A stretch of 64,000 nucleotides of DNA from contig JANXAM010000004.1 of the NCBI GenBank assembly GCA_025062155.1, positions 67,160 to 131,159 on the forward strand, written 5' to 3'. Source of the DNA: Gloeomargarita sp. SKYB120. GTDB lineage: Bacteria > Cyanobacteriota > Cyanobacteriia > Gloeomargaritales > Gloeomargaritaceae. The translations under genes were made by a program, and so were the position numbers. The notes under the pieces are model-generated. The model had not been told where the DNA came from. It saw only the letters and a program-made list of their open reading frames with translations, and ran no database searches. Positions 20,691 through 52,617 of the stretch are shown here, one piece after another. The stretch's first letter is position 1, and each line of letters begins with the position of its first letter.

Positions 20691-20701
20691 TGAGTTGTCT
20701 A

Positions 20702-20800
20702 TAGCAAAAAACATTTGAGCTGGCGTGTTTGAGCAGCGGGCAAGGCAAAAGCGTCAAGGCCTCTAGTTGTAGCTCATGCCAAACATTGTGTGCTTAGCTA
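20702..20800. mobile_element. 99-bp MITE, copy C
   Basis: A non-coding 99-bp element flanked by TA on both sides (20700-20701 and 20801-20802). It begins TAGC and ends GCTTAGCTA. Length, TA target duplication and termini match the two elements at 23011 and 23525, and the terminal TAGCTAA is shared with the IS630 remnant at 20869. Internal similarity to the other two copies is weak. Probably mobilised by an IS630/Tc1-type transposase. Confidence 0.55.
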
Positions 20801-20868
20801 TAGGAAGGGGAAAGATGCCATGGATCAACATCCAGCGGGCCAGTGCTGGGCAATCAAATTCCTTGATA

Positions 20869-21614
20869 TAGCTAAAAACACTTAGTCTGACGTAGAATAA
20901 GGGTGATAGGTTACGGAGTGATGTCTATGCCTTACAGCACAGACTTACGTCAGAAAGCCATTGAAGCGGTCTTGGGGGGTGCAACACTCGTCGAAGTGAG
21001 ATATCGCACGTTACAACGCTGGCTCAAGCAATGGTCTGAAACCCGGTTACCAAAAGGGGCATAGTCATAAATTTCGCAAGTTTGTCGAAGCAAATTCCAG
21101 TCTGACCCAAAAGGAAATGGCGGCTAGTATGACGATTTGTAGGGCGCTTAAAAGACGAGCAAGAGCGGCAAGCATATCTCGGGAAAATGAAGGATGTGAA
21201 GTCGGAAGAAGTCGTCTACATAGACCAATCCGGCATTGACCAGCGAGCAAAAGGTGAAAGGGTTTATGGGAAGAAGGCGGGTGGGATATGATGGGTGGTG
21301 ATTATCTCGGGAGACTCATCGAGCCATTAACCTGGATAGGGAGCTGCAATTTACAGGTAGTTTTGACTTGGTTGACGGAGTGGTTATTACCAGTGATTGG
21401 TCCTGGTAAAAAGATAGTGATGGACAGGCGGCGGTTAGGCAAGTGGTGGAAGCGGCTGGGTGTGAGTTATTCACCCGATTTGAATCCAATCGAACAGGTG
21501 TGGTGTCGGATTAAGCAAAAGGTGCATAAGTTACAGGTGAGTCCAATCGAAAATCTGCAATCTTTGGTCAATGAAACTATCCGTAGCTTATGTCAAGTTT
21601 TGTGATTTTAGCTA
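20869..21614 (+). mobile_element. IS630-family insertion sequence remnant
   Basis: A 746-bp element bounded by inverted ends (TAGCTAAAAACAC at the left, revcomp TAGCTAAAATCAC at the right) and flanked by the dinucleotide TA on each side (20867-20868 and 21615-21616), the target preference of the IS630/Tc1/mariner group. Intact members are usually about 1.1 kb, so internal sequence has been lost. A second, more decayed copy of the same family lies at about 52190-52567. Confidence 0.75.
20921..21605 (+). pseudogene. IS630-type transposase, multiply disrupted
   Basis: The N-terminal helix-turn-helix part reads MSMPYSTDLRQKAIEAVL with TLQRWLKQWSETR, then stops at 21061-21063. Later pieces in other frames include VYIDQSGIDQRA (the first catalytic Asp region), a corrupted second Asp block (KKIVMDRRRLG), and the well-preserved ending SPDLNPIEQVWCRIKQKV, the third acidic block (Glu) of the DDE domain. 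The frames are broken by stops and shifts and the middle is shortened. It cannot encode an active transposase. Confidence 0.8.
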
Positions 21615-21628
21615 TAGAATGCGCTATG

Positions 21629-22140: not shown

Positions 22141-22509
22141 CTACGAAGGACAGTAAGCAAGCTGCAAAGACTGGGCAACTGTCAGGAGACGTTTATCCCT
22201 TGTCCAAAGCTGGTATTGCGTCTGGGCTGTCGCAGCTAGCAGGTGAGCATCTACCCAGCCAATCCCACTCCCCATGAGTTGATGCCGCTCGACAAAATCT
22301 AACACTCGCTCATGACTCACTAGGGGAAGACTAGGTAAGTCCCGCAGAAAACTCAAGACTCGGTGGCGATTCTTGAAATTACCCAGCGCTAGTTCACCGA
22401 TAATCATTTCGTGGATGCACACACGGCTTGTTTCTAACAGGTTTCTCAGCACGGGATTACCACTACGGAAGTAGTCAATCCAGATAGATGTGTCAACGAC
22501 TATCTTCAT
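22141..22509 (-). CDS. vapC: PIN-domain ribonuclease toxin, VapC family
   Basis: A 122-aa PIN-domain protein, the usual VapC size. The acidic active-site residues are in place: Asp6 in VVDTSIWID, Glu39 in MIIGELALG, Asp87 in GIGWVDAHLLAA and Asp105 in LWTRDKRL. VapC toxins cleave specific RNAs, often tRNAs, when released from their antitoxin. The start overlaps the end of the upstream antitoxin-like gene by 17 bp, the normal toxin-antitoxin arrangement. It is the only apparently intact module in this decayed accessory region, which fits selection for keeping the pair together. Confidence 0.88.
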   Translation of the reverse strand: MKIVVDTSIWIDYFRSGNPVLRNLLETSRVCIHEMIIGELALGNFKNRHRVLSFLRDLPSLPLVSHERVLDFVERHQLMGSGIGWVDAHLLAATAQTQYQLWTRDKRLLTVAQSLQLAYCPS

Positions 22510-22720
22510 GCAGGCTATCCCACCGGCGACGGGGTATGTCTTGCAAATCCGGTTCAGTTCCTTCTAACTCCAACAGGGCTTGTGCCGCTTGCTTTGCCCG
22601 CATCTCCGGCGCATATTCTTCCACAATGGTTACTAGGACGCGAGCCGCTGCAATGTCCGGTTGCTCGCCTACCCAGTGAATCTGTCCATCCCTGTAAATC
22701 GCTTCGTAGGTTTTCATCAT
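22493..22720 (-). CDS. VapB-like antitoxin
   Basis: A 75-aa protein directly upstream of and overlapping vapC, so most likely its antitoxin. The N-terminus MMKTYEAIYRDGQIHWV resembles the short beta-strand start of small cyanobacterial antitoxins. The C-terminal half is acidic and helical (MRAKQAAQALLELEGTEPDL), suited to wrapping and inhibiting the toxin. No classical AbrB or ribbon-helix-helix motif is obvious. The start ATGATG overlaps the stop of the preceding short gene. Such antitoxins usually repress their own operon; no operator was identified here. Confidence 0.7.
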   Translation of the reverse strand: MMKTYEAIYRDGQIHWVGEQPDIAAARVLVTIVEEYAPEMRAKQAAQALLELEGTEPDLQDIPRRRWDSLHEDSR

Positions 22721-22908: not shown

Positions 22909-23010
22909 ACAGGCGGAACCCAGTTGGGCGACTCATCTACCGCTAGGAGCAAGTAGTACTGTCATGCAACGGGCACCTACTGCACCAGGGCCTTTGCTAC
23001 GGGACTTCTA

Positions 23011-23109
23011 TAGCCGAGCCATCTATGGTTGTCAGCCCTAGGGTCCCAGAGCACGGCCCCGCCTTTGGGTTTTCTCTCCTCTCTCTGACAAACTAAAGCA
23101 GCTTAGCTA
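23011..23109. mobile_element. 99-bp MITE, copy A
   Basis: A non-coding 99-bp element flanked by TA (23009-23010 and 23110-23111), starting TAGCCGAGC and ending GCTTAGCTA. Internal sequence is clearly related to copy B at 23525-23623: both carry tctat near the left end, gggttttc in the middle and ctgacaaact near the right end. Equal length and matching ends mark them as one family. Confidence 0.7.
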
Positions 23110-23191
23110 TAGCGCTTTGCCAGCCAGCAATCGCTTTAGGTGTCCAAGGGGCATCCCCAATCTACCCAGCCTAGCGTTATTGGTTAGGGGG

Positions 23192-23758
23192 TTAAGCCTG
23201 GTGAATCGCTGTCAGAACCTTTTGCTGCAAAGACGATTCCAGTGCCGTCCAAATCCGACGCTTTACTGCTGGGGGCCAATCGCGAAGCCAATCCAAACAG
23301 ATTTCCGCTAGAGCTTCTGGTGAGTCTTGACAGGTTTCCAGCAAGCGAACCACAGCTTCAACGTCAGCAAGTGTGGGTTTGCGCCAGGGTTTGGGTTCGT
23401 ACAGTCGCAAATCTCGCAGGGGTACCCGGTGAGTAATAGCTTTCCACTGGGATGAGTCCAGCACGGCTGTATCTCCCTGCAGCGCCTTCACAAATAACCC
23501 CTGCCCTTGGTGGGCCCGCGTCTATAGCTAAGCTATCTATACTGGTCATCTTCTAGGTTGCAGGGCGCAGCTTCGGCTTGGGTTTTCCTATCATCGCCCT
23601 GACAAACTGAAGCGGCTCAGCTATAGGACGCGCTTCAGCTTTCCATCAGCTCCGACGTAAACTACTCGCGCACCCGATGTAATTTCTGCGGCAACTTGCA
23701 AATGAGGGTCCCCAGAGTCCCCATGTACTGCATTTTGTGCTTCTGTGGCCCTATTCAT
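23192..23758 (-). pseudogene. unknown gene split by MITE insertion
   Basis: Reading the minus strand, a 45-codon frame from 23758 runs through ITSGARVVYVGADGKLKR and is ended at 23621-23623 by a TAG supplied by the terminus of MITE copy B. On the other side of the MITE a frame resumes with QGQGLFVKALQGDTAVLD and HRVPLRDLRLYEPKPWRK and ends at 23192, about 99 codons from a GTG. Joined without the MITE the two parts differ by a one-base shift, so decay continued after or before insertion. The family is unknown to me; the wording resembles C-termini of cyanobacterial plasmid or island replication proteins. Confidence 0.45.
23525..23623. mobile_element. 99-bp MITE, copy B
   Basis: A 99-bp element flanked by TA (23523-23524 and 23624-23625), starting TAGCTAAGC and ending CAGCTA. 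It is inserted inside a former minus-strand gene and its right end provides that gene's stop codon. Similar in length, ends and interior to copy A. Confidence 0.7.
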
Positions 23759-51400: not shown

Positions 51401-52120
51401 CTATGTAAGTAATGATGTATTATAGTGGTGGATGAAGTTGAATATAATGCCGATGTGATTTTCTAGGTTTTTAGAAAAGGACAGAGTTTTCCTCGTCAAG
51501 CGACTCACTCGCTGTCGAAGCGTGTTGTTGAAGCGCTCAATCAAGGACGTCTTACCACTCCCTTCGACACCGACTTCGTGTTGGGATTTCGGAATCACCC
51601 GCCGATAAACTGGCCAAGAATCAGTATAAAATTTTGCCCGTTTTCGCCAAACAGTTGGCACTCTCTTCCATAATTTTTTTGCTGTCTCTATGCTTCTGTC
51701 TCCCACACAGGCGGCTACAATCATACGTGTCTTCCTCTCGGGAACTACCCAGAGCTACTGGAGATGCTTTTTTGAGCCGCAAAACGACCATATCTTGTCG
51801 CATTCCAGCTCTATCTCTTCATCGTCACCGAGCTGAATATCCATCATTTCTGACGTATAAATTGCCTTTTGCTTTACATATTTATACAGCCAAGATTGTG
51901 AAATGCCAGTCACCCGTGAGATGGCGGCAATTGAAAGTTGCTCTGACAGGTCACCTTTGTGCTCCAGAAATGTTTTTTTTCTGGCTTCAGGCATAAATTG
52001 CCGATGGCATTTATAGCAGATATAACGCTGTTTTCCATAGCTAAGCACAGAATGCTTGACATAGGCAGCAACCGGAACCCTACATGTTTCCCTGTTGGTT
52101 GTTGGTTGCTTCTCAAGCGC
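51401..52120 (-). pseudogene. IS1-family transposase interrupted by one amber codon
   Basis: The upper part reads YGKQRYICYKCHRQFMPEAR, the zinc-finger-like end of InsA, then a helix-turn-helix (AAISRVTGISQSWLYKYV) and the first catalytic block ELECDKIWSFCGSKK. A TAG at 51755-51757 follows; the same frame then continues LWVVPERKTRMIVAACVGDRS, shown in part as MIVAACVGDRS, with FYTDSWPVYRRVIP and SLIERFNNTLRQRVSRLTR and KTLSFSKNLE, the IS1 InsB ending. Because the two halves share a frame, a single TGG-to-TAG change (expected WLW) explains the break. The N-terminus upstream of 52048 is also frame-damaged. Confidence 0.8.
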
Positions 52121-52143
52121 GGCAACCTAAATGTTTCCTGCTA

Positions 52144-52186
52144 TAGCAACACGTTCATTATATGACAACCTTAAAAAGCTTAGCTA
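52144..52186. mobile_element. short MITE-like element (43 bp) with TAGC...GCTA ends
   Basis: Starts TAGCAAC and ends GCTTAGCTA, flanked by TA on both sides (52142-52143 and 52187-52188). The termini match the 99-bp elements near 20-24 kb, but the interior is shorter and AT-rich. It lies between the IS1 remnant and the second IS630 remnant and could be a deletion derivative. Confidence 0.4.
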
Positions 52187-52189
52187 TAG

Positions 52190-52567
52190 ACCACATAGAC
52201 CACCTGCTTTGGTGGTATCTGTTTGATTAACTCACCATAAGCCTGTCGCTCTTGCGGGCATAGCCTATCTTTTGCAGGGCTTTAACTCACACCGAAGTGA
52301 GCAGCCATCTCCCGTTGATCCACAAACCGCTGCAATGCTTCCAGGTCCTTCAGTTTATGACTATAGCCTTTTTGATAGCCTTCCTTAGGGTGGACATCTC
52401 CCGTTTCAGACCATTGGTTGAGCCAACATTGTAACGTGCGATATCTCACTTCAACCAGTGTCGCACCCCCTCCCCCAGCTTTCCGACGTGGCTCCGTGCT
52501 GTAAGGCATAGACATCGCTTCGTAACCCATTAGCCTTATTCCACGTCAGACTAAATGTTTTTGGCCA
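52190..52567 (-). pseudogene. IS630-family transposase remnant, second copy
   Basis: Reading the minus strand from 52515: MSMPYSTEPRRKAGGG, LVEVRYRTLQCWLNQW, then LEALQRFVDQREMAAHFGVS with a stop at 52282. After the stop a fragment AYGELIKQIPPKQVVYVV leads towards the first catalytic block, where the copy ends. The N-terminal part is closely related to the copy at 20921 (same VEVRYRTLQ wording), and the 5' flank (ACATTTAGTCTGACG) matches its terminal sequence. The catalytic domain is missing. Confidence 0.75.
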
Positions 52568-52617
52568 TGGATCAACTTTCAGTACTCGCTCAATAACGAG
52601 GTTTTTTCATTTGAATT

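Follow-up and report, generated by a model that had tools for sequence, protein, structure and literature searches.

The locus examined in the present study raises the question of what three short repeats of equal length are, whether they belong together, and which enzyme moved them. They lie in a 64,000-nucleotide stretch of contig JANXAM010000004.1 of Gloeomargarita sp. SKYB120 (assembly GCA_025062155.1), which is referred to here as the window. Copy A occupies positions 23011–23109 (TA at 23009–23010 and 23110–23111), copy B positions 23525–23623 (TA at 23523–23524 and 23624–23625), and copy C positions 20702–20800 (TA at 20700–20701 and 20801–20802), all on the forward strand. These positions, the 99-bp lengths, and the TA flanks are exactly those given by a previous, sequence-only reading of this DNA. 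We are highly confident that A, B, and C are TA-inserting MITEs of the IS630 (Tc1/mariner-like) kind. For A and B, the enzyme is probably the transposase of a second IS630 type (type 2); for C, that of type 1 is more likely.

The sequence-only reading regarded A and B as related and grouped C with them. The relationship between A and B was clear: they are identical at 69 of 99 positions in an ungapped comparison, and their gapped score is 40, against a mean of -25 and a maximum of -9 for 500 shuffles. C has the same length and TA flanks; however, only 35 of its 99 positions are identical to A and 38 to B, and its gapped scores (-10 with A and -7 with B) are at about the level of the top-scoring of 500 shuffles (-10 and -6, respectively). 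Therefore, C represents a separate family with a length equal to that of A and B. Its membership as a third A/B copy was rejected because the interiors are unrelated and no alignment extends beyond the ends.

Both ends of A and B follow TATAGCYAAGC...TTGTCA, the ends of C are similar, and the terminal repeats, of approximately 26 bp, are imperfect (TATAGCYAA...TTGNCA). The terminus TAGCTAA previously ascribed to the elements was present at the left end of B and, on the other strand, at the right ends of A and C, whereas A starts with TAGCCGA and C with TAGCAAA. The window contains three instances of the pattern TATAGC-N77..107-GCTATA, where 0.02 would be expected, and none of 100 shuffles reached three. 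A further copy of the C/D type, with a slightly decayed right end, lies at 52037–52145 on the reverse strand (67% identical to C; G000:C4:119192, G000 being the host genome). Between the MITEs, positions 22141–22509 (reverse strand) encode a PIN-domain protein and overlap a small upstream ORF at 22493–22720 (reverse strand), a pair that looks like a VapBC-type toxin-antitoxin.

In searches of the host genome (G000; 2.48 Mb in 91 contigs), A matched 40 times, B 41 times, and C 27 times. Merging by flanks left approximately 73 distinct near-full copies, this and the other host copy numbers being lower bounds. Thus, the copies expected elsewhere in the genome were found. Forty-eight of them measure 103 bp with both TAs, i.e., exactly 99 bp between the TAs, and 45 retain both TATA ends. 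The pattern TATAGC-N77..107-GCTATA was detected 51 times, versus once in the control. A has 19 own-genome copies at an identity of at least 90%, and B has a 98%-identical copy at G000:C20:33163. Three further copies of C are 99–100% identical to it, with flanks that all differ. The presence of four C copies at different sites with at least 99% identity indicates that C moved recently.

The flanks of several copies were joined and sought across the genus. In the sister genome G006, which is 98–99% identical to the host at both loci, two sites were uninterrupted, each containing only one TA. For a C copy, the filled and empty sites read GGTGC[TA]..[TA]GGCGG (L058) and GGGGC TA GGCGG (L147); for an A/B-type copy, they read CCCTTC[TA]..[TA]TTAATC (L038) and CCCTTC TA TTAATC (L154). 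The copy at L038 splits a CheA-like gene, the frame of which is open across the joined flanks. In these pairs, the filled site is longer by 101 bp, corresponding to the 99-bp element and one TA. The copies and their single-TA empty sites identify the elements as MITEs with TA target duplication, as had been proposed. Moreover, a C/D-type copy lies within an IS630 transposase frame (L140), other genomic copies of which provide the unbroken site. CTAG was the commonest target, being used by 13 of the 45 copies with intact ends against a background of 7% (p 1e-5).

An additional candidate for an empty site, near 30.1 kb of the window, was rejected. Gloeomargarita sp. SKYG116, a metagenome-assembled genome and the closest named relative found (89% protein identity in a CNNM protein), has an A copy there and the window has none; the flanks were too diverged for a clean junction. 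At one other site, the same left flank runs into MITE A in G006 (L107) and into a type-1 IS630 in the host (L086), with different right flanks, reflecting either site reuse or recombination between elements.

Related elements are widespread in the genus. The TATAGC-N77..107-GCTATA pattern was counted 147 times in G001, 72 in G003, 113 in G004 (a complete genome of the genus; 3,049,282 bp), 20 in G005, 25 in G006, and 0 in G002, with 0–2 in controls. The A family is present at a high copy number in the host and G006, and once in the stretch of SKYG116 examined. No plasmids from the genus carrying a related element were found.

Type 1 of IS630 is represented in the window by a defective element at 20867–21616 (forward strand; ends TATAGCTAAAAACAC / TATAGCTAAAATCACAAAACTTGACATA) and by a fragment near the 52-kb MITE at 52403–52575 (reverse strand; 82%; G000:C4:119562–119734). 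This type gave 54 matches in all, including that at 20867–21616, and has the ends TATAGCTAAAAACRTTTAG; the ends of type 2 are TATAGCYAAGCTTTTTAAGGTTGTCATA and TATAGCTAAGCTGACAAAGGTTGACATA. The longest residual ORF of the element at 20867–21616 (21288–21605) scored 33.9 bits with the IS630 model (cut-off 100) and 23.9 bits with DDE_3 (cut-off 28.6). Since this copy is defective, it cannot itself supply the enzyme. A complete type-1 element of 942 bp with matching ends was found in G006. Its ORF1 contains HTH_Tnp_IS630, while its ORF2 contains DDE_3 and scored 132 bits with the NCBIfam IS630 model (cut-off 100); the two overlap at an A8 run, which looks like a programmed frameshift. No intact transposase was found in the host genome, in which the type-2 copies are broken and the best type-1 copy (C16) is cut short by the end of its contig. 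Several host contigs start inside type 1 at 92–99% identity (C4:1-77, C24:1-112, C29:1-77, and C49:1-78), and, thus, the gaps between contigs may conceal intact copies, with near-identical type-1 copies being probable there. Many type-1 copies, that at 20867–21616 among them, share the same short internal deletions (L084, L085, L086, L087, and L091), such as LVEVSQMLNIGYRTLQ shortened to LVEVRYRTLQ, as if defective versions of approximately 750 bp were themselves being spread.

A core of approximately 33 nt, GGTCGCAGGGGCnnnGCCCCCGnCYTTGGTTCT, occurs in the middle of many elements of other Gloeomargarita species. A and B contain a decayed form of this core with the family consensus GGGTCGCAGGGCnCAGCCCCGCCTTnGGTTTTCC, located at 23041–23074 in A (GGGTCCCAGAGCACGGCCCCGCCTTTGGGTTTTC) and at 23556–23588 in B (GGTTGCAGGGCGCAGCTTCGGCTTGGGTTTTCC), both on the forward strand, and C is without it. 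The core was first noticed by visual inspection in the course of the analysis. A pattern of 20 of its bases, with at most one mismatch, matched 348 times in G001, 264 in G003, and 163 each in G004 and G005; both strands are summed in these counts, and near-palindromic copies could in principle count twice. Several matches were also present in four genomes from a different cyanobacterial family, f23 (G089, G277, G289, and G306), and other genomes had 0–1. Only three single exact matches were detected in viral contigs. The f23 repeats (L297–L304 and L323 in G089; L326 and L334 in G306; L327 and L335 in G277; L289–L296 in G289) have other surroundings, such as TTACGCGGAATCCT..AGGATCTTCCGCGTAA in G089 and TATAGCTGTTTTGCATAGCGATGAGACAAAAC in G306 and G277.

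In 400-kb samples, the core was present not only in elements ending in TATAGC but also, within the same genomes, in elements with the unrelated ends GGGCACCTCTA..TAGAGGTGCCC. Perfect 4-bp duplications flank 7 of 13 of the latter (p 1e-13), and six of these seven contain the core. Therefore, the core is common to elements with different duplication lengths. This second MITE type was observed at L305–L307 (G005), L328 (G004), and L313 and in the samples of G003 and G001, with the core in most copies. A multi-copy IS630 of G003 was rejected as the driver of the TATAGCAATCC family because its ends are TATAGTCATTT. A function of the core as a transcription terminator was unsupported: a T run is absent, and convergent gene pairs are not preferred. 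Some core-bearing MITEs of G004 and G001 contain insertions of small palindromes, e.g., AAGCACCTGCGGTGTA and TATGCCTACGGCACGC, at sites that recur.

In the mechanism we propose, the ends of the gene-less MITE would be bound by an IS630-type transposase encoded elsewhere, which would excise the MITE and paste it into a TA, preferably within CTAG, so that the TA is duplicated. A and B would probably be moved by the transposase of the second IS630 type in the lineage, and C more likely by that of the type whose defective copy adjoins it at 20867. We infer both the action in trans and the assignment of transposases to families. A, B, and C might instead all be internal-deletion derivatives of the type-1 IS630 of the window and depend on that one transposase. 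We consider this unlikely. All of the elements have TATAGC ends; however, the terminal 6–7 bp are common to both IS630 types and do not discriminate between them. Over positions 7–28, the ends of A and B agree with type 2 at 14–16 of 22 positions (p <= 1e-4), with 14–15 at the left end, whereas the left end agrees with type 1 at just 8–10 (p 0.02–0.18); the consensus ends were picked by eye from alignments and several comparisons were made, making these p-values guides. The interior of A and B also shows the genus-wide core rather than any remnant of IS630 coding sequence. A single type-1 origin is nevertheless favored by the right end of A and B, which agrees with the left end of type 1 at 13–14 of 22 positions, and by the left ends of C and D, which do so at 13–16 (16 for C). 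The right ends of C and D agree with that of type 2 at 16–17 positions and with that of type 1 at 14–16. The pairing of families with transposases is no more than probable, since the right end of C fits type 2 (16/22) at least as well as type 1 (14/22). The earlier proposal of a family driven by the IS630 of the window was consequently only partly upheld: the elements are IS630-type, non-autonomous, and TA-duplicating, and the pairing with the window's remnant may at best be right for C, not for A and B.

The repeats may alternatively be old structured regulatory or terminator sequences that are now immobile and kept by selection in intergenic DNA. A and B fold somewhat more strongly than shuffled sequence (z -1.7 and -2.3), and the core in relatives lies in ORFs in just 0 of 60, 5 of 70, and 6 of 49 cases, with ORFs, called by simply taking the longest, covering 84–87%. 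No known RNA family matched the elements, the best result being a sub-threshold snoRNA match. As a full account, this explanation is contradicted by the empty sites, and we regard it as highly improbable. Insertions differ between near-identical genomes with a clean TA duplication, one being in a gene; the four near-identical C copies occupy unrelated sites; and there is no clear bias to convergent, divergent, or tandem gene pairs. At most, such a role could supplement the MITE explanation. We similarly give very little credence to the idea that the likeness between the core of A and B and that of differently ended MITEs arose by chance or mutation in a GC-rich palindrome. The core is a short GC-rich hairpin and matches were chosen by a 20-bp pattern within it, so that likeness there was partly selected. 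However, the adjoining 14 bp, which were not used in the selection, agree at 12 of 14 positions between the TATAGC-ended and CACCTCT-ended consensus sequences, against 42–44% in the flanks, and the 163–348 matches in each of four Gloeomargarita genomes contrast with 0–1 in nearly all other cyanobacteria searched and 0–1 in controls. We tentatively raise the possibility that the core is a portable module, passed between MITE families with different transposases or kept because it aids their persistence, of which A and B have a decayed form. Exchange between MITEs by recombination would explain the shared core without any function.

As judged by layout alone, the repeat unit of pneumococcus (RUP) may be the closest known system; it is approximately 107 bp, has ends like those of IS630-Spn1, and is thought to be mobilised in trans (PMC3049150). 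The elements described here are likewise approximately 100 bp, gene-less, present in many copies, and equipped with ends like those of a host IS630, and they insert both in and near IS elements and pseudogenes. They differ in occurring in another host, in forming several families, and in the A/B core common to MITEs of another type. The chemistry of transposition is expected, by analogy, to be that of ISY100 of Synechocystis, an IS630/Tc1/mariner element with 24-bp imperfect repeats that inserts into and duplicates TA (PMC2170065). ISY100 is autonomous (947 bp) with a single ORF of 282 aa, whereas the Gloeomargarita elements are 99 bp and gene-less, and their related IS630 comprises two ORFs that meet at the A8 run. 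Since the ISY100 transposase acts alone (PMC2170065), action in trans on short elements is plausible. Cyanobacterial MITEs have been described as Nezha, in Anabaena sp. 90, and in thermophilic Synechococcus (PMC10969869; PMC3542288); by description, they are also short, non-coding, and mostly intergenic, with inverted repeats, and some split genes. Those of Anabaena sp. 90 were assigned to type II, and no IS matched them (PMC3542288); in contrast, the ends of the Gloeomargarita MITEs match IS630 ends of their own lineage. A, B, and C agree with what is generally described for MITEs of prokaryotes (PMC10969869). No papers on Gloeomargarita MITEs were found in a literature search, with most subscription journals being outside its reach.

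The 99-bp elements are an ordinary, known kind of mobile DNA, namely, IS630-type TA-duplicating MITEs, and the sharing of the core between differently ended elements is the sole unusual part of the finding. Of the known cyanobacteria, Gloeomargarita is the most closely related to plastids. The present results revealed that its members carry dense populations of TA-duplicating MITEs. The insertion differences between near-identical genomes are usable as markers, and insertions break genes. If true, the shared core would offer a direct test of whether the interiors of MITEs serve only as filler or are modules under selection that pass from one transposon family to another.
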